Source of the DNA: Syntrophobacteraceae bacterium | GTDB lineage: Bacteria; Desulfobacterota; Syntrophobacteria; Syntrophobacterales; Syntrophobacteraceae | NCBI GenBank assembly: GCA_029974695.1 | Contig: JARKQW010000175.1 | Location: 1-33,866, forward strand | Direction: 5' to 3' | Length of the DNA: 33,866 nt | Shown here: piece by piece, positions 12,648 through 33,866 of the stretch | Layout: every line of letters begins with the position of its first letter | Position numbering within the stretch: position 1 is the stretch's first letter | Position numbers and translations under genes: made by a program | The notes under the pieces: model-generated | Told to the model about the DNA's origin: nothing | The model's database searches: none | The model's input: the letters and a program-made list of their open reading frames with translations, nothing else

Positions 12648-13057
12648 GGGATCATCCCGAGATTCGGAACCGATCCTCCCCGGGGATGGGAAGGGTGGGG
12701 GGGGAGTTTTCCGCACGACCTTTGACCCCCTTTCACCCTTGTCCTCCGAGGGAGTCGGTCCCGGATAGTTTCGGGGATGTCCAAATAAGTCTGGACACCC
12801 GCCATGAGCCTGGTTTATGTGAGTTCTTTTCCGGAGATTGGCCGGAATCCGGCTTCAATAGTTCCGCCTCGCCCGGACTCCTCATCGGACCGGTCGGGTC
12901 CCCGCGGTATGAATGCCGGAAGACGGTACGCCCTTCTCGGAGGCTCCCTGCCGGAGGACCTTCACCCTGCCGGTCGATCGGTCCGGGAATGCCCGGATCC
13001 GGGAGGGATCATCGAGCAGCGCATGTTTGCATCATGGAACCCTTTGGAGGAGGAAGT
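12648..13057 (+). other. 410-base gap before purH with palindromes but no gene
   Basis: No reading frame here looks like a protein. Visible items are a perfect TGTCCA-N8-TGGACA palindrome at 12778-12797, flanked by further pairing GGG/CC, and an eight-pair hairpin with an AATG loop at 12980-12999 just upstream of purH. The first could be an operator, the second part of a purH leader. The conserved cores of the ZTP and purine riboswitches were looked for and not found. The purH ribosome-binding site GGAGGAGG is at 13046-13053. Confidence 0.35.
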
Positions 13058-13669
13058 ATGTTTCCAATTCGTCGCGCACTCATCAGTGTGACGGACAAGA
13101 CGGGGTTGGTTGACTTCGCTCGGGGCCTGGAGCGATGGGGGGTGCACCTGTTGTCCACCGGGGGCACCGCTCGCCTGCTTCGGGACAACGGCATTGCCAT
13201 TACCGAAGTCTCGGACTACACGGGATTCCCGGAAATGCTGGACGGAAGGGTCAAAACCCTGCATCCCAAAATACACGGGGGGATCCTGGGGATTCGAGAC
13301 AACGGGGAGCACCTCGAGACCATGAGGAAGCACGGGATCGAACCCATCGATATGGTGGTGGTGAACCTGTATGCTTTTGCCAAAACCGTGGCCCGCCCCG
13401 GGTGCACCCTGGAGGAAGCCGTCGAGAACATCGATATCGGGGGTCCGACCCTCATACGAGCCTCAGCCAAGAACCATCGCCATGTGGCCGTGGTCACCGA
13501 TCCCGAGGACTACCCCCTCATCCTTGAGGAAATGAACGGACACGGGGGGTCGTTGTCCCGCAAGACGAGCATGAGCCTTGCCTGCAAGGCATTTTGCCTG
13601 ACCCACGCCTACGACGGAAACATCTGCGAGTATCTTCGGTCCGTGGTGAACGGTTCGGCCCGAGATTGA
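13058..13669 (+). CDS. purH: IMP cyclohydrolase (PurH N-terminal domain only)
   Basis: This domain closes the ring of FAICAR to form IMP, the last step of purine synthesis. The 203 residues cover only the MGS-like IMP cyclohydrolase half of bifunctional Pur[77 protein letters not shown]. The frame ends in a proper stop right after this domain. The roughly 310-residue AICAR formyltransferase half is missing, and the following 120 bases do not encode it in any frame. A stand-alone cyclohydrolase is therefore more likely than a truncation, with the formyltransferase encoded elsewhere. The ATG at 13058 has a strong GGAGGAGG five bases upstream. purD follows. Confidence 0.92.
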
Positions 13670-15667: not shown

Positions 15668-16324
15668 ATGAAGTATCGGGACCGGATTTGGAGAATCAAC
15701 GGGTCCGGGCCGCCGGATCCGTTCATCGCCGAGGCTTCGGCACGGCTGGCAAGGGACGGGGTGGTGATCTATCCCACGGAAACCTTTTACGGCCTGGGAG
15801 CCAATCCCTTCTCGGCCGATGCGGTCCTCCGGGCCTACCGGATCAAGAGAAGATCCCTCGCCAAAGCGATGCCGCTCATCGCCTCCGATATCGCTGCGGT
15901 GCGCAACGTCGCCGCCGACTGGAGTCCTTCCACGGACCTGCTCGTCCGCGCCTTTTGGCCGGGGCCCCTGACCTTGATCCTTCCCACCGCCGTCCCGTTC
16001 CCTTCAATGTTGCTGACCGGGCCGGGAAAGATCGCCGTGCGGGTTTCCTCCCACCCCGTAGCCGGAGCGCTTGCGACCGCAGTAGGTGGACTTGTGACCG
16101 CAACGAGCGCCAACATTGCCGGAAGTTCCCCCATTGCGGACCCGGCAGAGATCCCTCCGGACCTGCTCCGGGAAGTGGACGGAATGCTGGATGCAGGGAC
16201 GCTCCCGGGGAACTTGCCGTCCACCGTCCTGGATGTAAGCCGTCCGGTACCTCGGCTGGTGCGTGAGGGCTGTCTTCCCGCGGAACTAATCGCCCGGGCC
16301 TTGAGTCGTCGGACTTCCTGGTAA
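15668..16324 (+). CDS. tsaC: L-threonylcarbamoyladenylate synthase (Sua5/YrdC/TsaC family)
   Basis: This enzyme makes threonylcarbamoyl-AMP from threonine, bicarbonate and ATP, the first step in t6A37 tRNA modification. The 218-residue single-domain protein has the YrdC signatures: VVIYPTETFYGLGANPF, then a KRR-LAKAMPLI segment that binds RNA/ATP, WPGPLTLIL, VRVSSHPVA, TSANIAGS, and PSTVLD with a final VREG. It lacks the C-terminal Sua5 domain, so it is of the short TsaC type. The ATG lies seven bases after purE, preceded by a purine-rich AGGCGG, so it is probably read from the purine transcript. Confidence 0.92.
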   Translation: MKYRDRIWRINGSGPPDPFIAEASARLARDGVVIYPTETFYGLGANPFSADAVLRAYRIKRRSLAKAMPLIASDIAAVRNVAADWSPSTDLLVRAFWPGPLTLILPTAVPFPSMLLTGPGKIAVRVSSHPVAGALATAVGGLVTATSANIAGSSPIADPAEIPPDLLREVDGMLDAGTLPGNLPSTVLDVSRPVPRLVREGCLPAELIARALSRRTSW

Positions 16325-16393: not shown

Positions 16394-18502
16394 ATGGACC
16401 CTTCCCTGATGATCTTGTTGGTTTTGCTCACGGCTTCGGCGGTGGTGTTTCTTTGCGCCCGTCGCTGGAAGACCCTTGCGCGCCGGGAAGTACGAGTTCT
16501 TCTGACGGGGGGAGGCACCGGGGGACACGTGAATCCCGCCTTGGCCATCGCCGAAGACATCAAGAAACGGGACCCCTGCGCCAAGTTTCTGTATGTGGGG
16601 GTGAGAGGCAAAGCGGAGAGCGTGATTGTTCGTCGAGCGGGATACCCGTTGTGGTTCGTTTTTTCCGAGGGGTTTCCCGGTCTCAAGCCTTCTTTCCGGT
16701 GTGTGCGTTTTCTGTTCAAGCTGGGACTGGGAGTCGTCCAGTCTGTGGCGTACCTCCTAATATTCGCCCCTCGCTGGGTGATCGCTACGGGAGGATACGT
16801 GAGCGCTCCCGTCATCCTTGCCGCCTTGATCCTTCGAACCCTTCGCGTTTCCCCGGCCAAGGTCTTTCTTCACGAGCAAAACAGCATCCCGGGTCAGCTG
16901 AACGGTCTTTTAGGGAGATACGTGGACCGCGTGCTCCTCACCTTTCCTCAAACCCTTTCCTTTTTCCCGAGAAACGGGGTCGTCACCGGTTACCCCATCC
17001 GCAAATCCATTGCCGTGAAGCCCCGTCAGGAAGCACTGGAGAGCCTGCCGTTTCGGATTCCCGATGGCAAACGGGTGGTTTTCGCCTTCGGGGGGTCCCA
17101 GGGAGCCCGCACCATCAACCGGGCCGTTGTGGACTCCTTGCCCCACCTCCTGCCCCATGGCCGGGAGATCTTCATCATTCACGGAACCGGCCTGGCAAGA
17201 TCGGCGGATTACGATGCCGCCGCGGACACTCTCGATCGAATCGAAAAGACCCTCACGCCCGAACAGAAGAATTCCCTTGCCCAATGCTATTACCGGCAGG
17301 ACTATTTCCATAACATTGCCGATATCTACTCCGTCTGCGACTTGATTGTGTGCCGAAGCGGAGCCGGAAGCCTGAACGAGATATCCTGTGTGGGAAAGCC
17401 TGCGGTTCTCATCCCCAAGGCCAATCTGCCCGGCGATCACCAGGTGATGAACGCACGCACCATGAAACATTGCGGGGCAGCCGTGATCCTATTTGAAGAC
17501 ACCGTGGTGGAGGCGGGAAGAATCCTCGAGAAACTGGAAGGACGCGTGCTGGCGGAATGTATCCTCCAGCTTCTCAAGGACCCGTCCACCCTGGAACAAA
17601 TGGCTCGAAACAGCCGGAGCTTTTTGAGGCAGCAGGCAAACGACCGTATTTTGAACGAGATCTACGGAAAGAACCAAGCCGTTGCATCCTCGGAACTCGA
17701 CCTCGTCAAGGTGCCCTTTCGACCCCTTCTCAGCAACCAGCAGCTGCTGCAGACTTTGAGCGCCGCATATCGGAGGGCCCCCGACCAATATCACCCCCTC
17801 TCCGTGATAGGGGATGAAAACGACTTGCACTACTACCAGCATCGGGCTTCCGGGCTCCTGAGTCATGAAGCCTGGCAGGATCGGAACGTGGGCGTAAAGC
17901 TGACGGGCCTCACCCTGCACCGGGAGAAGATCCCCACCCTTCTCCATATGCTCACGGATCGAACGCCGGTACACTGGGTGAAACGGATCCTGGGGGGAGA
18001 TTTTGAGCAGGTCGGCTTCATTCGCCGCAATATTATCCAGGCGATTCAAGTCATGGGCCACTTCGATGCGGAAGTGGAACAGGCCCTTCTCACAGCCATG
18101 GAAGACCCGTATTACGAGGTTCGGTCCCAAGCCTGCGCCGCGCTGGCCCGCTTCGGCTCCTACGGATCCGGAAAGGAAGAATGGTTTCAGGCCCTTGTGA
18201 AAAGGCTGAATGAACCGTGTTTCGAGGTGGTGGTGCAGGCGGCCGAGGCATTGGGCGAAATAGGGACCAACTCCCGAGCCCTGGAGATCCTGCTCAGACT
18301 TCGAGAGCACCACTACTGGCAGGTACGGGATGCGGCCCTCAAAGGGGTAAAACGCCTGTTGGAACGAGGAACGATCACGCCCTCCCCGCATCTGAGCTCC
18401 GAGCTCCTGGGCTTCATTCTGACGGCTACGGACTTTCGCCCTCATTTCTCCATCAAGCAGACCTACAAGTCCGTTCGGGACCTACTGAATTCCGAGCCCT
18501 GA
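16394..18502 (+). CDS. MurG-like glycosyltransferase fused to a HEAT-like repeat domain
   Basis: MurG adds GlcNAc to lipid I on the inner membrane face. This 702-residue protein is about twice the usual length. Residues 5-22 form an N-terminal membrane helix. Residues about 33-420 are a MurG-type GT-B fold: LTGGGTGGHVNPALAIA (His45), HEQNSIPGQLNGLLGRY near 160, FGGSQGARTIN near 235, and CRSGAGSLNEIS near 320, where MurG has the UDP-GlcNAc-binding acidic residue, then DHQVMNA near 350. Residues about 490-670 hold HEAT-like helical pairs (for example EVRSQACAALARFGS, EVVVQAAEALGEIG, QVRDAALKGVKRLL). A divergent MraY follows 68 bases later. Acceptor, donor and the role of the HEAT part are unknown; it could be a MurG paralogue or this organism's only MurG. 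Confidence 0.85.
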   Translation: MDPSLMILLVLLTASAVVFLCARRWKTLARREVRVLLTGGGTGGHVNPALAIAEDIKKRDPCAKFLYVGVRGKAESVIVRRAGYPLWFVFSEGFPGLKPSFRCVRFLFKLGLGVVQSVAYLLIFAPRWVIATGGYVSAPVILAALILRTLRVSPAKVFLHEQNSIPGQLNGLLGRYVDRVLLTFPQTLSFFPRNGVVTGYPIRKSIAVKPRQEALESLPFRIPDGKRVVFAFGGSQGARTINRAVVDSLPHLLPHGREIFIIHGTGLARSADYDAAADTLDRIEKTLTPEQKNSLAQCYYRQDYFHNIADIYSVCDLIVCRSGAGSLNEISCVGKPAVLIPKANLPGDHQVMNARTMKHCGAAVILFEDTVVEAGRILEKLEGRVLAECILQLLKDPSTLEQMARNSRSFLRQQANDRILNEIYGKNQAVASSELDLVKVPFRPLLSNQQLLQTLSAAYRRAPDQYHPLSVIGDENDLHYYQHRASGLLSHEAWQDRNVGVKLTGLTLHREKIPTLLHMLTDRTPVHWVKRILGGDFEQVGFIRRNIIQAIQVMGHFDAEVEQALLTAMEDPYYEVRSQACAALARFGSYGSGKEEWFQALVKRLNEPCFEVVVQAAEALGEIGTNSRALEILLRLREHHYWQVRDAALKGVKRLLERGTITPSPHLSSELLGFILTATDFRPHFSIKQTYKSVRDLLNSEP

Positions 18503-18570
18503 TGCCCGGGGTCCATCGTCATGAAATGCGGGGGTTTGAACGAAAATCGTGATGGGAGGAATCCACCGGT

Positions 18571-19680
18571 ATGATTTATGAAATCTGCAACATCCTGATT
18601 CCCCTCTCGGACGTCTTCTCATTCTGCAGGCTGGTGAACTACATCACCTTTCGCGCCATCATGGCGGCCTTGACGTCCGTGATCTTTATCTTCCTGGTCA
18701 GTCGCCATTTCATTCTGTTCATGCATCACCGCAGCCTCTTCGACCAGGTACGGGATACGGGGGTTCACTCGGCATTCGACAAGAGCGGCACCCCCACCAT
18801 GGGGGGAGTTCTCATCATCGGCTCCGTATTGAGCTCCATGCTCCTGTGGGGGAACTGGCACAATCCCTTTCTCCTGTGCTCGGTGGTCGGGATGTTGTGG
18901 TTCGGGGGCCTGGGATTCATGGACGACCTGTCCAAAGTGAAGCGGAAGAGCGGAGACCGGGGACTGTCCGAACGAACGAAACTCTTTCTCCAGGGCTTGT
19001 TCGCCCTCCTTTTTGCCTGGGTGTGCGTGGGCCCCTACGCCCCTCTGGGCGCTCCCCTGGCCACCAAGCTCTACATCCCTTTTTACAAGCACGCCGTCTG
19101 GGACCCGGGACCCTATTTCTACGGGGCGTTCATCTTCTTCTTTGTCATCTTTGTCTCCAATGCCGTGAACATCACCGACGGGTTGGACGGGCTGGCCATC
19201 ACTCCGTCCCTGTTCGTGGTGGGCGTCCTGGGCATCTTTGCGTACGTGGAAGGAAATCGGATCTACTCCGCGTATCTCTATTACCCCTATCTGCGGGGCG
19301 TGAGTGAATTGACCATTTTCGGAGCGGCTTTCGTAGGGGGCGGATTGGGTTTCCTGTGGTACAATGCCTACCCGGCGCAGATCTTTATGGGGGATACGGG
19401 GTCCCTGGCCATAGGAGGAATCATGGCCGTGATCTCCGTGCTCCTCAAGCAGGAAATGCTTTTCCCTCTGTTGGGGGGCTTGTTTCTCGCCGAGGCCCTC
19501 ACAAGCCAGTTTCAAGACAAGGTCGGGGTTCGCTGGTTGGGTCGCCGGGTCTTTTTCCGGGCACCTTTGCACCACAACCTGCAGTACAAGGGCAATGCCG
19601 AAACCAAGGTGGTGATCCGTCTTTGGATCGTTGCCGGGATCCTGGCCCTCATTTCCCTGGCCACGCTAAAACTGCGCTGA
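18571..19680 (+). CDS. MraY-family phosphotransferase, divergent
   Basis: MraY transfers phospho-MurNAc-pentapeptide to undecaprenyl phosphate, giving lipid I. The 369-residue protein has about ten hydrophobic helices and the MraY marks: KSGTPTMGG after the first helices, GFMDDLSK with Asp118-Asp119, NAVNITDGLDGLA with Asn197, Asn200 and Asp203, and FMGDTGSLA with Asp275. At 334-336, where MraY normally has HHH (PxHHHxELKG), it reads PLHHNLQYKG, so the third histidine is Asn. The N-terminus and loop sizes otherwise match MraY rather than WecA. A GGGAGGA lies ten bases before the ATG. It is paired with the MurG-HEAT gene and no other mur or fts genes are nearby, so a paralogue with altered substrate is possible but not shown. 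Confidence 0.88.
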   Translation: MIYEICNILIPLSDVFSFCRLVNYITFRAIMAALTSVIFIFLVSRHFILFMHHRSLFDQVRDTGVHSAFDKSGTPTMGGVLIIGSVLSSMLLWGNWHNPFLLCSVVGMLWFGGLGFMDDLSKVKRKSGDRGLSERTKLFLQGLFALLFAWVCVGPYAPLGAPLATKLYIPFYKHAVWDPGPYFYGAFIFFFVIFVSNAVNITDGLDGLAITPSLFVVGVLGIFAYVEGNRIYSAYLYYPYLRGVSELTIFGAAFVGGGLGFLWYNAYPAQIFMGDTGSLAIGGIMAVISVLLKQEMLFPLLGGLFLAEALTSQFQDKVGVRWLGRRVFFRAPLHHNLQYKGNAETKVVIRLWIVAGILALISLATLKLR

Positions 19681-19744
19681 AATCTCGGCAAATCCCTCCA
19701 AAACGGTTCCCAAACTCCCGGTGCACGGGGAAAAGACCCGGCCC

Positions 19745-19778
19745 AAACTCGAGACCGGGACCCCGGTCCCGGGAGTTT
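19745..19778 (+). terminator. GC-rich hairpin after the MraY-like gene
   Basis: AAACTC pairs with GAGTTT, and inside it, after a four-base bulge, CCGGGA pairs with TCCCGG around a six-base loop. The 3' arm ends in TTT. It starts 64 bases after the stop of the MraY-like gene and 37 bases before the DUF202 start. The shape suits a terminator or attenuator, but the T-run is too short for a confident intrinsic terminator. Confidence 0.4.
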
Positions 19779-19814
19779 CCCAGGTGGGAACTTCCCTTGC
19801 CGGGGGAGGCGACT

Positions 19815-20252
19815 ATGGAAGAGACCAAGACCGCACCTGTGACGAAAGAGCCCCTGAAGCCCCAGGACCTCTTCGATTTCTCCGACGAAAGGGTGTTCTT
19901 TGCCTGGCAAAGAAACCACATGGCCAATGAGAGGACGTTTCTTGCCTGGTGTCGCACGGGAATTTCTCTCATCGTCTTTGGGTTCGTCATCGAACGGTTC
20001 GATATTCTCATCCGGGAGATTCAGGCCTTCTCCAGCAACGTGAAACGCGTTTCCCAGACGCATTACCTGGGCCTGGTGACCTTCGGCCTGGGAGCGATGA
20101 TCATCATACTGGCGGGTTGGCGATTTTTTTACATCCGTTCTCACATCAACCGGGGTGAAACGGGTTTTTCGCCCCTACCGGACGTTTTCTTGATGGTGTC
20201 CGTTTTGGTCACGGTTCTGGTGATTTTTTTGCTTTTTATCTTTCTTTTTTGA
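19815..20252 (+). CDS. DUF202 (YidH-like) inner-membrane protein
   Basis: The 145-residue protein has a polar N-terminal tail, then the DUF202 signature NHMANERTFLAWCRTGISLIVFGFVIERF in two blocks (N-ERTFLAW-RT followed by the first membrane helix). Two further helices follow: LGLVTFGLGAMIIILAGWRFF and VFLMVSVLVTVLVIFLLFIFLF at the C-terminus. DUF202 members are small membrane proteins of unclear function. GGGGGAGG ends about six bases before the ATG at 19815. It sits after the MraY-like gene, separated by a hairpin, so it may or may not share that transcript. The frame is open upstream inside the MraY gene, but the conserved part starts well after this ATG. Confidence 0.85.
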   Translation: MEETKTAPVTKEPLKPQDLFDFSDERVFFAWQRNHMANERTFLAWCRTGISLIVFGFVIERFDILIREIQAFSSNVKRVSQTHYLGLVTFGLGAMIIILAGWRFFYIRSHINRGETGFSPLPDVFLMVSVLVTVLVIFLLFIFLF

Positions 20253-24489: not shown

Positions 24490-24684
24490 GCACAGTGAAC
24501 CCCGCACGGCAACTTTGTTTCCCACGGACCCAACAGGGCCTGTCAACAGGGAGATGTAGAAGTCTTCCTGAAGCCGTATCGCCGCACGAGTCACCCTCCT
24601 CCTTCCCCCCGGCGGCCGGGGTTGGGCTTGCGAAGGCCGCCTCTGTATCCGTCCGTCCTAACGGCCCTGCCTCGCGGTCGCCCC

Positions 24685-25641
24685 CTACTCCTCGCCTTTA
24701 CACGCCTCCCCTCGGGTGTCCGCGCGGAATTGCCTTTCCCGGAGCAGCTTGATCAGGCCGCCTCGGCGAAGATAGTCGCTGTAATTGTCGGGATGCTGTT
24801 CCAAGATGTATTTGAGGTAGGATATGTTGTTTTCTATGGCTTCCCGGTAGAGGTCCGAGTCGATGCCCCAACGAGTCAGGAAATGATGAAGCATGTATCG
24901 GTCCACATTTCCCAGCTGGGTTTCAAACCTCTTCTTGGTAAACTCCCAAAAGCCCGGGGTCTTCCGAAGCAGATCCAACTCACTTTCGAACCCGGGGACG
25001 CCGCCCTCCTTAAATTCCTGGAACAGGAAAGGCAACCTCTCCAGGTAGGTCCTGTCCGCCATTTGGCCAAGCAGGTCCGAGGCCCCCAACATCATGCCCA
25101 ACATCTCGTGCTCCCCGGACTGAAATCGAATCTCGGTCATCTGCACATCCAGTCCGGTGCATCGAAGGATATCGCGGCAAGCGGCAAATTCTTGTGCCGA
25201 ATACCCCTGTGCATCGAAGTATTCCTTCATAAAGCAAATACTGCGCTCGATGTGGTTGAGGGTATACTTGGCGCCGGTTCCGGAGACATCGTCCGCCGTC
25301 TGGACGTACCCCGTATCGTGCATCAATGCCGTGATGAGGGCCAGGGTGACCATACCCTCCTCCATTTGGACCCCCGTCCGATGCGCCCCGTGGATCAGGC
25401 GAATCAAAGCCATCAGGCAATCCGTAGTGTGCTTCAAGTCATGGTAGCGGGTGTTGCACCGGAAGTACCCAGGGCATCTGCCCAGGAAAAGTCCCCGGAC
25501 GTGTTCGAAAGCCTTCTCAAGGGGCTGCTGCGAGTAGTTCGGGAACATGAGGAAAAGGAGCCTCTTGCATTCCTCAAAGACATCCTCGGGGTCCTCCATG
25601 CACACCAGATCTTCCAACTTGATCCTCTGAACCAGCATCAT
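24685..25641 (-). CDS. HD-domain protein resembling cyclic-nucleotide phosphodiesterases
   Basis: The 318-residue soluble protein has metal-site motifs RYHDLKHTTDCL at about 65-76, ALITALMHDTGY at about 103-112, and YTLNHIERS near 126-133. The first resembles the YHNxxHAxDV signature and the second the HD of class I (eukaryote-type) phosphodiesterases more than ordinary HD-GYP proteins. The second half is helical, with DLLGQMADRTYLERLPFLF supplying a further acidic metal ligand. Substrate is unknown: cAMP, cGMP or another phosphoester are all possible. The tandem ATGs at 25641 and 25638 follow GAGG. It is upstream of the squalene-hopene cyclase gene on the same strand, but a separate promoter lies between them. 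Confidence 0.75.
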   Translation of the reverse strand: MMLVQRIKLEDLVCMEDPEDVFEECKRLLFLMFPNYSQQPLEKAFEHVRGLFLGRCPGYFRCNTRYHDLKHTTDCLMALIRLIHGAHRTGVQMEEGMVTLALITALMHDTGYVQTADDVSGTGAKYTLNHIERSICFMKEYFDAQGYSAQEFAACRDILRCTGLDVQMTEIRFQSGEHEMLGMMLGASDLLGQMADRTYLERLPFLFQEFKEGGVPGFESELDLLRKTPGFWEFTKKRFETQLGNVDRYMLHHFLTRWGIDSDLYREAIENNISYLKYILEQHPDNYSDYLRRGGLIKLLRERQFRADTRGEACKGEE

Positions 25642-26035
25642 GGCCGCCTCGTTCCAAGAGATCCAAGCCGTTTCCGTTCGTCGAGCGAACTCCCCGCCAC
25701 CCCAAAATTGCGGCTGCTGTTTTGCCGTGAACCGAAAAAGATTAAGGATTCCTCTATTACGATATTACGATGGGAAAATGATGAATCTAGGGCTCCAAAG
25801 CAGTCAACGGACTCCCTGGTGATTGACAACTTTCGGAGTGGTAAAGTGAGACCGTATCCCAAAATGAGAAGAATGAATCTTTCTCTAGACTATGGACAAA
25901 GCCCTGCGTCCCCCTCCGCGTTCAGATCTACGCGAGGCGTTGATCACACTAGCAAAAGAAGGCGCGCAGCGTCAACCTCGTTCTCGTGCACAGGCCCCCC
26001 CGAACGTTTCCCAGGTCGACCTCCATCCTTCCATT
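25642..26035. other. AT-richer intergenic stretch without a convincing gene
   Basis: This stretch separates the divergent HD-protein gene and the membrane-anchored coiled-coil gene. Its composition is more AT-rich around 25730-25880 than in the flanking genes. Reading all frames gives no protein-like sequence, and no well-spaced promoter was found for the HD-protein gene. The strong plus-strand promoter at 26036 closes the region. Confidence 0.4.
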
Positions 26036-26063
26036 TTGAAACCCACGTCAAATGAACTATAAT
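26036..26063 (+). promoter_or_regulatory. strong sigma-70 promoter
   Basis: TTGAAA (26036-26041, five of six consensus bases) and a perfect TATAAT (26058-26063) are separated by 16 bases. The predicted start is near 26070, giving a long leader of about 155 bases before the ATG at 26226. This is the best promoter match in the window. Confidence 0.7.
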
Positions 26064-30359: not shown

Positions 30360-30444
30360 GTCGCAACGACACGGGCGGCAGGGATTTTGGCACCATGCGG
30401 CCGAGATCCGGAATCAGGCCCGGGAAAAATCCAGGGAGGACCAA

Positions 30445-30474
30445 TTGACAGATTTCATCGGCAAATGTTTTACT
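30445..30474 (+). promoter_or_regulatory. candidate promoter for dnaE
   Basis: A perfect TTGACA at 30445-30450 is followed, after 18 bases, by TTTACT at 30469-30474 (four of six consensus bases). The predicted start is near 30481, about 60 bases upstream of the dnaE ATG. The rest of the 30232-30542 gap holds only the divergent promoter. Confidence 0.5.
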
Positions 30475-30542
30475 GCCTTTCGAGGTCCATTCCACTTTTG
30501 GATTCCATCCGCGAAAACCCTCCTCGGGAGGAAAGGCTGCCC

Positions 30543-33500
30543 ATGAATCCCTTTGTTCATCTTCACGTCCACACCCAGTACAGTCTGCTGGACGGAGCAA
30601 TTCGCCTGAAAGATCTCCTGGAGACGGCGGTCGGCTACCAGATGCCTGCCGTCGCCATCACCGACCACGGCAACATGTTCGGCGCCCTCGAGTTCTACGA
30701 CATGGCCCGGAAAGCCGGGATCAAGCCCATCATCGGGTGCGAGGTCTATCTCGCTCCCCGGAGTCGTTTGGACCGCCACACCGGCGGGGAGCTCACCGCC
30801 AACGGGGAAGAGGACCGCAACTACCACCTGGTGTTGCTGGCCAAGGACCTGACCGGATATCGGAACCTGCTCAAGCTGGTCACCCGGGCGTATCTCGAAG
30901 GCTTTTACTACAAGCCCCGAATCGACAAGGCCCTGCTGAGGCAATACCACGAAGGCCTGATCGGTCTTTCGAGTTGCCTCAAGGGAGAGATTGCCTCCCT
31001 GCTTCTGCGAAACCAGGACGGCACCGCACGAAAGACGGCCCTGGAATATGCGGAGATATTCGGGCCGGAGAATTTCTACCTGGAGCTTCAGGCAAACGGC
31101 ATACCGGAACAGGATGCGGTCAATGAAACCTTGATCCGCATGGGAAAGGACCTGGGGATTCCCCTGGCGGCGACCAACGACTGTCACTACCTGCGCAAGG
31201 CGGATGCCCGTGCCCACGAAGTGCTTCTGTGCATCCAGACGGGGAAGACCATCCTGGACGAAAAGCGCATGAAGTTCCAGACGGACCACCTCTATTTCAA
31301 GTCCCCCGAGGAAATGGCCCGCGCTTTTTCCCACGTGCCCGAAGCCTTGGAAAACACCCTCGTGATCGCCGAGCGGTGCAACCTGGATCTGCAGCTGGGA
31401 GAGTACCACTTCCCGGACTTCCCCCTGGAACCGGGAGAGACTCTCGAGGACCGTTTTGAGAAGACGGTCATGGAAGGCTTTGAGGAGAGGATCGGTCAAA
31501 TCCGCTCGACTCGGCCCGATTTCACGGACAAGGATCAGCAGGAGTACCGCCAGCGGCTGCGCCTGGAAATGGACGTCATCCGCCGGATGGGATTCGTGGC
31601 CTACTTTCTCATCGTCGCCGATTTCATCAACTACGCCAAGCAGAAGGGAATCCCCGTGGGACCGGGCAGAGGTTCCGCCGCCGGGAGCCTGGTGGCCTTC
31701 GTGATGAAGATCACGGATCTGGATCCCATCGAGCACGGGCTCATTTTCGAACGGTTCCTGAACCTCGAGCGAATCAGCATGCCCGACATTGACGTGGACT
31801 TCTGCGTCCACGGCAGAGAGGAAGTGCTCCGGTACGTTACGGAGAAATACGGGCAGGACCGGGTGGCCCAGATCACCACCTTCGGCACCCTCCAGGCGCG
31901 GGCGGCCATCCGGGACGTGGGACGGGCCTTGGCCATGCCCTACAACGAGGTGGACCGGATCGCCAAGATGATCCCGGCATCCCCGGGGATGACCCTGCAG
32001 AAGGCCTTTCAGGCGGAGCCCCGGCTGGGGGAGCAGCAGCGAAACGATCCCCAGATCAAGGAACTCTTCGAAGTTGCCCTTGCCCTGGAGGGACTCACTC
32101 GACACGCATCCACCCACGCGGCGGGTGTGGTCATCGCCGACAAGCCCATCGTCGAGTACATGCCGCTCTACCGGGGGCAAGACGGGGAAACCGTCACCCA
32201 GTTTCCCATGAAATACGTGGAAAGGGCAGGTCTCATCAAGTTCGATTTCCTGGGTTTGAGAAACCTTACGGTCATCCACAACGCCGTTCAACTGATCCGC
32301 AAAAACCACCACCTGGACATCCGCCCCGAGGCCCTTCCCCTGGACGATCCCGAAACCTATGCGCTCCTGAGCCGCGCCGACACAACGGGGGTATTCCAGC
32401 TGGAAAGTTCGGGAATGAGGGACATCCTGGTTCGCCTTCGCCCCGAGAATTTCGCCGACATTGTCGCCCTGGTAGCCCTTTATCGACCGGGGCCTCTCGA
32501 GAGCGGCATGGTGGACCAGTATATCGACGGCAAACACGGCCTGGCTCCGGTCACCTACGATCTCGAGATGCTGCGCCCCATTCTCGAACCGACCCACGGC
32601 GTCATCCTCTACCAGGAACAGGTCATGAAAATCGCCAGCGTCCTGGCCAATTACACCCTCGGGGAAGCGGACATTCTGCGGCGGGCCATGGGAAAGAAGA
32701 TCCCCGACGTGATGAAGGCCCAACGGGATCGATTCATTTCGGGAGCTAAGGAGAACTCCATCGATCTGGCCAAAGCCAATCACATTTTCGACCTCATGGA
32801 GAAGTTTGCCGGATACGGATTCAACAAATCTCACAGCGCCGCCTATGCCCTCATCGCCTATCAAACCGCCTATCTCAAGGCCCACTTTCCCGTAGAATTC
32901 ATGGCGGCCCTTCTCAATAGCTTTCTCAGCAATTCCGACCAGGTGGTGAAGCTCATCAACCAGTGTCGCGAAAACCAAATCGAGATTCTTCCGCCCGACG
33001 TGAACGCCAGCAGCAACGACTTCACCGTCGTCGAGGGGAAGATCCGCTTCGGCCTGGGGGCTGTGAAGAATGTGGGAGAGACCGCCATCGAGTCCATCCT
33101 TACCGTGCGGGATCAAAACGGGCACTTCCGGTCCATCTATGATTTCTGCCGGCGGGTGGATACCCAGAAGGTGAATCGGAGGGTCCTGGAGCAACTCATC
33201 AAGTGCGGCGCCTTCGACACCATCCACGGCAACCGGGCCCAGGTGCTGGCGGCCGCCGACGACGCCCTGGAAAAGGCCCAGGTGGTGCAGAGAGACCGCC
33301 AGACGGGTCAGATGAACATGTTCGAGCTGCTTCGAAGTCAAAAAGGCAAGACCCCGGCTCTGCCCACGGTGGAACCCTGGGATAACCGCACCACCCTCCA
33401 ATTCGAAAAGGAGGCCCTGGGCTTCTACATTTCCGGTCATCCCCTGGATTTCTACGCGGAACGGATCGCCCGGCTCTGCACCGCCGATACCCAGAGCGTC

Positions 33501-33866
33501 AGTGAGAAGAGGGAAGGGGTCGAGGTCGCCCTTTGCGGTATGGTCACCATCACCAAGGAGTTGACCACCAAGCGGGGAGATCGCATGGCGTTTCTCTCCC
33601 TGGAGGACAAGGAGGGAATCCTCGAAGTGGTGGCCTTCTCGGAAGCGTTCCTGCAGGCCCGCCCCCTGCTCGACAAAGATGAGCCCCTCGTCGTTCTGGG
33701 AAAGGTTCAACACGATGAAAAAGGGACGAAATTGGTGGCCAACCGGATCCTTACCCTGGCCGAAGCTCAGCTCGAATCCGTGGATGCCGTCCGAATCCGC
33801 CTCCGTGCCGAAGACCTCGACAAGGATGCCCTTTCCCGGCTGAGGCACCTGCTCATGAGCCTTGCG
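30543..33866 (+). CDS. dnaE: DNA polymerase III alpha subunit, 3' end cut by the window
   Basis: DnaE is the replicative polymerase catalytic subunit. The frame stays open for 1108 codons to the last base, so only the C-terminal few dozen residues are probably missing. Seen in order: an N-terminal PHP domain (HLHVHTQYSLLDG, ITDHGNMFGALEF, NDCHYL), the palm with FLIVADFINYAK, GPGRGSAAGSLVAFV and PDIDVDF near residues 414-420 (the catalytic aspartates), then YQEQVMKIA and GFNKSHSAAYALIAYQTAYLK, tandem HhH motifs, and the start of an OB fold (EVALCGMVTITKE). GGGAGGAAAGG precedes the ATG at 30543. The gene is divergent from the CAP-domain gene. It is the ordinary DnaE type, not PolC. Confidence 0.97.
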   Translation, partial: MNPFVHLHVHTQYSLLDGAIRLKDLLETAVGYQMPAVAITDHGNMFGALEFYDMARKAGIKPIIGCEVYLAPRSRLDRHTGGELTANGEEDRNYHLVLLAKDLTGYRNLLKLVTRAYLEGFYYKPRIDKALLRQYHEGLIGLSSCLKGEIASLLLRNQDGTARKTALEYAEIFGPENFYLELQANGIPEQDAVNETLIRMGKDLGIPLAATNDCHYLRKADARAHEVLLCIQTGKTILDEKRMKFQTDHLYFKSPEEMARAFSHVPEALENTLVIAERCNLDLQLGEYHFPDFPLEPGETLEDRFEKTVMEGFEERIGQIRSTRPDFTDKDQQEYRQRLRLEMDVIRRMGFVAYFLIVADFINYAKQKGIPVGPGRGSAAGSLVAFVMKITDLDPIEHGLIFERFLNLERISMPDIDVDFCVHGREEVLRYVTEKYGQDRVAQITTFGTLQARAAIRDVGRALAMPYNEVDRIAKMIPASPGMTLQKAFQAEPRLGEQQRNDPQIKELFEVALALEGLTRHASTHAAGVVIADKPIVEYMPLYRGQDGETVTQFPMKYVERAGLIKFDFLGLRNLTVIHNAVQLIRKNHHLDIRPEALPLDDPETYALLSRADTTGVFQLESSGMRDILVRLRPENFADIVALVALYRPGPLESGMVDQYIDGKHGLAPVTYDLEMLRPILEPTHGVILYQEQVMKIASVLANYTLGEADILRRAMGKKIPDVMKAQRDRFISGAKENSIDLAKANHIFDLMEKFAGYGFNKSHSAAYALIAYQTAYLKAHFPVEFMAALLNSFLSNSDQVVKLINQCRENQIEILPPDVNASSNDFTVVEGKIRFGLGAVKNVGETAIESILTVRDQNGHFRSIYDFCRRVDTQKVNRRVLEQLIKCGAFDTIHGNRAQVLAAADDALEKAQVVQRDRQTGQMNMFELLRSQKGKTPALPTVEPWDNRTTLQFEKEALGFYISGHPLDFYAERIARLCTADTQSVSEKREGVEVALCGMVTITKELTTKRGDRMAFLSLEDKEGILEVVAFSEAFLQARPLLDKDEPLVVLGKVQHDEKGTKLVANRILTLAEAQLESVDAVRIRLRAEDLDKDALSRLRHLLMSLA

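Follow-up and report, generated by a model that had tools for sequence, protein, structure and literature searches.

A predicted sole pair of lipid I and lipid II synthases, MurG-HEAT and a variant MraY, encoded outside the dcw cluster of a Syntrophobacteraceae bacterium

Synthesis of lipid I and lipid II is essential and is an antibiotic target, and the transfer of lipid II from MurG to the flippase is mechanistically open. An alternative lipid II synthase is reportedly named MglA. A glycosyltransferase other than MurG has been described as able to take its place as lipid II synthase (PMC8092295). Canonical MraY, MurG, and MurJ are reported, from native mass spectrometry, to form an affinity gradient that takes lipid I to MurG and lipid II to MurJ (PMC9046198), a scaffolding role toward the Mur ligases has been suggested for MurG (PMC6420597), and the division and cell wall (dcw) gene cluster is treated in PMC8871954. 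Here, we analyze a murG–mraY pair in a 33,866-nt stretch of DNA from a Syntrophobacteraceae bacterium (positions 1 to 33,866 of contig JARKQW010000175.1, assembly GCA_029974695.1; hereafter the window). The first gene encodes a MurG-type glycosyltransferase with C-terminal HEAT repeats (MurG-HEAT), and the second encodes a variant MraY. The two are very probably the genome's only synthases of lipid I (MraY) and lipid II (MurG), core peptidoglycan machinery from a distinct clade that replaces the dcw copies.

The contig that holds the pair (C350) belongs to a 3.69-Mb assembly of 518 contigs that is 88.7% complete, with 5.8% contamination. PF00953 occurs at two places in this genome, the window MraY and a protein that reads from its sequence as WecA/TagO-type. 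PF04101 also occurs at two places, in the window MurG and in a PseG-like protein whose gene adjoins a NeuB-like one, with labels taken from sequence in the same way. Domain searches of this incomplete assembly reveal no further mraY or murG. The genome's own dcw cluster (contig C141), with genes named from their translations and from Mur-ligase matches, comprises mraZ, rsmH, ftsL, ftsI, murE, murF, murD, ftsW, murC, ftsQ, and ftsA, without mraY between murF and murD and without murG between ftsW and murC. Another genome of the same phylum (G058) has the standard order murF-mraY-murD-ftsW-murG-murC. Since no other mraY or murG is found and both dcw slots are empty, while murC–murF, ftsW, and ftsI are present, the peptidoglycan precursors lipid I and lipid II must rely on the window pair. 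Genomics thus strongly supports a single-copy synthase function.

The original prediction had described a MurG-like and a MraY-like gene next to each other, murG first, outside the cell-wall cluster. The reading frames are as described, and both order and location hold well beyond this genome. It had left two options, relocated core genes or a second lipid-linked sugar or glycopeptide, and had named the absence of any other mraY or murG as one of two findings that would make the pair ordinary peptidoglycan machinery. That absence is what we find. Of the two options, relocation stands, and a second lipid-linked product is not supported, given the sole copies and a dcw cluster that lacks both genes.

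In a first set of 59 related genomes, 55 of them from the class (G000–G054), an mraY match is present in 57 (54 over the curated cut-off of TIGR00445) and a murG match in 55, just one of which is over the cut-off of TIGR01133. Wherever a class genome has both matches (50 of 50), murG precedes mraY on one strand of one contig, with 994–1453 bases between the profile matches, so the reversed order is no accident. The class genomes left out of this count are G001 (neither gene), G002 (fragments), G039, G045 (68% complete), and G049. The genes purD, purE, and tsaC commonly lie upstream of the pair in class genomes.

The wider family comprises 79 loci from a profile scan of named genome contigs, representing the best 80 of 97 relatives. 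They come from Syntrophobacteraceae and other Desulfobacterota, Acidobacteriota, Myxococcota, Latescibacterota, metagenome-assembled genomes labelled Gemmatimonadetes, Zixibacteria, and others. A same-strand mraY follows murG in 77 loci, and the remaining two stop at a contig edge. The genes overlap by 4 nt in 39 of the 77 and lie within 60 nt of each other in 66. HEAT repeats are detected in 78 of the 79, the exception being truncated by a contig end, and Pfam assigns GT28_N, GT28_C, and HEAT_2 to all 49 non-fused members scanned (the window protein and those of 48 loci). None of the 79 loci contains murC, murD, murF, or ftsW in tblastn searches of flanks up to 10 kb, whereas at least one of these genes accompanies canonical mraY in 59 of 59 loci and canonical murG in 60 of 60. 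In the window (region 18485–18571), MurG-HEAT stops earlier than in most Syntrophobacteria relatives, and 68 nt separate it from mraY where many relatives have the 4-nt overlap.

For copy number, we chose 43 of the 79 family loci and surveyed their genomes. A single strong MurG is present in each, split in G088 over two contig-end pieces, and only one genome has a MurG above the TIGR01133 cut-off. MraY is above its cut-off in 40, and the other three have contig-end pieces. In broader samples, MurG is over the cut-off in 209 of 247 genomes of the phylum and in 179 of 247 Acidobacteriota genomes. The scores of MraY fall into two groups, about 370–456 bits and 250–303 bits, plus a few fragments. 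A low TIGR01133 score does not by itself identify the HEAT type, since three genomes (G346, G362, and G374) score low yet carry a canonical-scoring mraY beside murF and/or murD.

The window MurG matches GT28_N, GT28_C, and then HEAT repeats in Pfam. Its AlphaFold2 model, built from 49 sequences, has a mean predicted local distance difference test score (pLDDT) of 92.1 and a predicted template modelling score (pTM) of 0.87. The nearest fold of the catalytic part is Pseudomonas aeruginosa MurG (PDB 3s2u), with a Z score of 37.2 and a root-mean-square deviation of 2.5 over 325 residues; Foldseek gives a template modelling (TM) score of 0.88 by target length against the same structure. Residues H18 (of the GGTGGH loop), N127, N134, R163, S191, E268, and Q288, in Escherichia coli numbering counted from the start, are kept in 76–78 of 78 family rows. 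In the broad sense, the protein is a predicted MurG by GT28 N- and C-domains, conserved active-site residues, and fold.

Within the HEAT domain, the stretch GGDFxQVGFIRRN is near-invariant in the family. Mean column conservation is 0.706 over residues 526–550, compared with 0.625 and 0.608 in the two glycosyltransferase domains, which points to strong constraint on the HEAT domain. The Foldseek and VIA lists are filled by glycosyltransferase and MurJ folds and carry little information on the nearest fold of the HEAT domain. The N-terminal helix has a 19-residue hydropathy of 2.64 in the window and above 2 in all Syntrophobacteria rows. No such hydrophobic helix is seen in other phyla, where rows long enough to score reach at most 1.08. 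To see whether this helix is a relic of the last MurJ helix, a profile of 17 helix segments was compared with the MurJ portion of each of 12 fused proteins, and no match was better than E 0.5.

The window MraY matches Glycos_transf_4 and MraY_sig1 in Pfam, scores 302.9 bits against the TIGR00445 cut-off of 192.05, and matches MraY sequences in the PDB down to 2e-82. Adjacent catalytic aspartates are present in 73 of 73 family rows, and the NxxDGLDGL region is kept as well. The HHH triad of loop E distinguishes the two groups: all 61 canonical rows have it, and none of the 72 family rows that can be read there (of 73) does. In the family, the third position is occupied by N, A, S, Q, D, T, G, R, or C, and the first two histidines are kept in all but one readable row. 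H325 of MraY is reported to contact inhibitors (PMC6606608), and a literature search for His324 as a residue name returned nothing. In two loci of Myxococcota type (L147 and L148), the mraY frames are about 455 codons long, compared with the usual 369, and the MraY profile matches in two parts.

Both enzymes form clades of their own. In FastTree trees, 78 family MurG rows split cleanly from 61 canonical rows with a support of 1.0 and a branch length of 0.72, and 73 family MraY rows split from 61 canonical rows with a support of 1.0 and a branch length of 0.50; the canonical rows are drawn solely from Desulfobacterota, Acidobacteriota, and E. coli. We file the window MurG, which scores below the TIGR01133 cut-off, in a sister clade outside that equivalog. 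Family MurG and MraY distances correlate with each other (r 0.89 over 72 rows; best of 1000 permutations, 0.28). A MurG-HEAT tree was built from 70 rows, after two of 72 that lacked the N-terminus were set aside. In it, a branch sets off each of three groups: the helix-bearing Syntrophobacteria (moderately supported, 94), the Acidobacteriota, and the others. The rows nearest to the window are from Desulforhabdus and other Syntrophobacteraceae. A single clade of fused MurJ–MurG-HEAT proteins is unsupported in this tree (46).

These fused proteins occur in sister families of the class, where the murG gene has about 1200–1250 codons. All 12 long complete reading frames among the 79 loci carry MurJ, GT28_N, GT28_C, and HEAT_2 in Pfam. 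The N-terminal part matches PF03023 and has the MurJ fold, and sequence search concurs. In the model of a 1199-residue fused protein (mean pLDDT 85.9), the MurJ part has TM scores of 0.87–0.89 to 7wax and 7waw, and the MurG structures score 0.86, by target length; the domain arrangement is less sure because the pTM is 0.67. Of the residues that are near-invariant among 17 stand-alone MurJ rows, the fused copies keep many, and the change of several others weighs against full MurJ function. Some sister genomes have a stand-alone MurJ in addition, and the fused MurJ is the only one in G041, G042, G043, G046, and G053, two of which (G042 and G046) are single contigs.

Proximity without fusion is seen elsewhere. 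A MurJ frame starts no more than about 100 nt after mraY in seven Acidobacteriota loci (L121, L123, L124, L125, L127, L128, and L132), and murJ lies upstream of murG-HEAT in a Myxococcota locus (L145). The window genome has separate MurJ genes on two contigs (C50 and C510). That the stand-alone MurJ of the window's order is a split-off fused MurJ is not supported, such rows falling outside the fused clade (the L141 row ignored). In a single-contig class relative (G054), the MurJ–MurG part and the rest of MurG form two truncated frames 1.3 Mb apart, possibly through misassembly or a broken gene. The original prediction had called both enzymes non-standard. They are, and in ways that went beyond it: the HEAT fusion, which it did not see, the membrane anchor, the altered MraY triad, and the MurJ fusion in relatives.

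Most likely, these lineages depend on the pair for lipid I and lipid II and have rebuilt this essential machinery into a unit anchored in the membrane. Across whole lineages, a distinct MurG and MraY clade has taken the place of the mraY and murG genes of dcw. MraY would load phospho-N-acetylmuramic acid (MurNAc)-pentapeptide onto undecaprenyl phosphate to give lipid I. MurG, predicted to be tethered to the membrane through its own helix (in sister families, through MurJ), would add N-acetylglucosamine to give lipid II. MurJ would then flip lipid II; it is encoded apart from the pair in this genome, next to it in some Acidobacteriota, and as part of the MurG protein in sister families. The three membrane steps may then work as a unit in which the lipid passes from enzyme to enzyme. 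The HEAT domain may be the surface on which MraY or the Mur ligases dock, and together with the MurJ fusion it would harden contacts of the kinds reported or proposed for the canonical enzymes; we would guess that the changed MraY positions, partly in the loop-E region, form a docking face too. A more specific arrangement is tentative: MurJ–MurG-HEAT would hand lipid II from the MurG active site straight into the MurJ cavity, the HEAT domain would dock MraY, whose TM9b/loop-E and loop-A face would be rebuilt to match, and the window MurG-HEAT would be the split form of this assembly.

We assign the pair as the sole synthases because of its single copy, the absence of both genes from dcw, the conserved pairing, the kept catalytic residues, the fold, and the MurJ fusion in relatives. 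Several observations weigh on the other side. The window MurG scores 220.6 bits, below the TIGR01133 cut-off of 250.25. The MraY triad is altered, and of the 86 columns near-invariant in canonical MraY the family retains 65 and differs at 12, among them H65, V308, M321, H327, and E329 (E. coli numbering). The assembly is only 88.7% complete. A genome of the same genus (G001), 93% complete and with MurJ present, shows neither gene at E 0.001; joint absence of an adjacent pair suggests an assembly gap. Finally, one of the 43 surveyed genomes (G079) has a canonical-scoring MraY beside the family piece, likely contamination.

The alternatives differ in what they make of the changes. If dcw genes had simply moved and diverged slightly, the HEAT domain and the triad change would be neutral drift. 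The move out of dcw is indeed observed, and function and fold appear conserved. The HEAT domain, however, is present in all 49 members scanned and contains a motif more conserved than the catalytic domains, the triad separates family from canonical MraY perfectly, and a single clade spanning several phyla with correlated partners is unexpected from drift, leaving this account unlikely.

Alternatively, the clade's MraY may take a different UDP-MurNAc-peptide and so produce a modified lipid I/II and an unusual peptidoglycan. The 12 changed positions, H65, H327, and E329 among them, fit this idea, and so does the triad: according to a review, the HHH motif has been proposed to contribute to substrate specificity (PMC5039524), and an altered donor is hence conceivable. 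The donor is made, however, by ordinary MurC–F homologues of the same genome, and family members differ in the residue at the third triad position, which speaks against a new specific contact. A modified donor is accordingly quite improbable. A parallel pathway to another lipid-linked glycan or glycopeptide alongside normal peptidoglycan, as divergence of both enzymes and location outside dcw might suggest, is rejected on copy number as very improbable, because this genome has no other mraY or murG, nearly all of the other family genomes (43 surveyed) have one strong MurG and MraY, and murC–murF, ftsW, and ftsI are present, so that lipid I/II must derive from the pair.

The pair is flanked upstream by tsaC and purine genes (purE and others) and downstream by a DUF202 gene, panE, and panB, agreeing with its earlier placement between purine and pantothenate genes. 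A squalene-hopene cyclase gene lies further downstream on the opposite strand. The DUF202 gene had been proposed as a third member of the module and put forward for a survey of co-occurrence across related genomes. The murG–mraY order came through that survey, and the third gene did not: DUF202 adjoins mraY in only 5 of 79 loci (L087, L089, L090, L092, and L161) and, not being beside mraY in most, is rejected as a member. Elsewhere in the window, a purH-like gene (12686–13669) encodes the MGS (IMP cyclohydrolase) domain and covers just 59 of the 311 positions of the AICARFT domain, resembling a split bifunctional PurH. Two long reading frames (24622–26055 and 30414–33848) have no Pfam match and may not be genes.

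Table 1 Coordinates in the window of the murG-HEAT–mraY pair, its protein features, and adjoining genes
Feature	Position	Strand	Size and basis
murG-HEAT, membrane-anchored MurG-type GT28 glycosyltransferase (predicted lipid II synthase) with C-terminal HEAT-repeat domain	16394..18502	+	702 aa; Pfam, PDB sequence match, AlphaFold2 model, fold match
mraY variant, phospho-MurNAc-pentapeptide translocase (predicted)	18571..19680	+	369 aa; TIGR00445 score, PDB MraY matches
N-terminal membrane helix of MurG-HEAT, residues ~1-31	16394..16486	+	AlphaFold2 model helix 3-31; hydropathy
GT28 catalytic domains of MurG-HEAT, residues 33-425, nucleotide and active-site motifs kept	16490..17668	+	Pfam, residue counts, fold
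HEAT-repeat domain of MurG-HEAT, residues 447-702	17732..18499	+	HEAT_2 (Pfam)
Near-invariant GGDFEQVGFIRRN motif within the HEAT domain, residues 534-546	17993..18031	+	Column conservation, invariant positions
Altered histidine triad codons H-H-N of MraY, residues 334-336 (HHH in canonical MraY)	19570..19578	+	Alignment
tsaC/sua5, conserved upstream neighbour within Syntrophobacteria, outside the mechanism	15668..16324	+	NCBIfam and relatives' loci
DUF202 protein gene, downstream of mraY	19809-20252		

The natural MurJ–MurG fusion, together with the displacement of the dcw copies in several phyla by an operon-linked MraY/MurG-HEAT pair, suggests that synthesis and flipping of lipid II can be physically coupled, and the fused and paired proteins are natural material for testing this coupling. 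Judging by the MraY clade, the signature triad may do without one of its histidines, a point relevant to the MraY mechanism and to inhibitor design. The MurGs of this family would be overlooked if annotated by the NCBI cut-off.

The MurG-HEAT/MraY architecture is apparently undescribed. No paper was found whose title or abstract describes MurG-HEAT or a MurJ–MurG fusion (PMC8092295 and PMC12419801 are among the matches), in a search that left subscription literature mostly outside its reach. The main text of the article on the alternative lipid II synthase (PMC8092295) does not contain the words HEAT or fused. Known mur fusions (MurE–MurF, MurB–MurC, MurG–MurC, MurC–Ddl, and MraY–MurG; PMC6420597) resemble the family fusion in joining enzymes of peptidoglycan precursor synthesis; among those listed in the accessible text, MurJ–MurG is absent and none couples synthesis to a flippase. 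Canonical MurG (TIGR01133, with E. coli and P. aeruginosa structures) shares the GT28 fold and active-site residues with the family, which differs by its C-terminal HEAT domain, its membrane helix (in Syntrophobacteria) or MurJ fusion, its location outside dcw, its score below the cut-off, and its own clade. The family MraY is like canonical MraY (TIGR00445) in its score over the cut-off, MraY signature, and aspartates, and differs by the lost third histidine of HHH (72 of 72 readable rows), the 12 changed positions, and the pairing with murG-HEAT. The N-terminal part of the fused relatives is like the MurJ flippase by Pfam (12 of 12) and by fold, and differs from it by several changed near-invariant residues and by its direct join to MurG.

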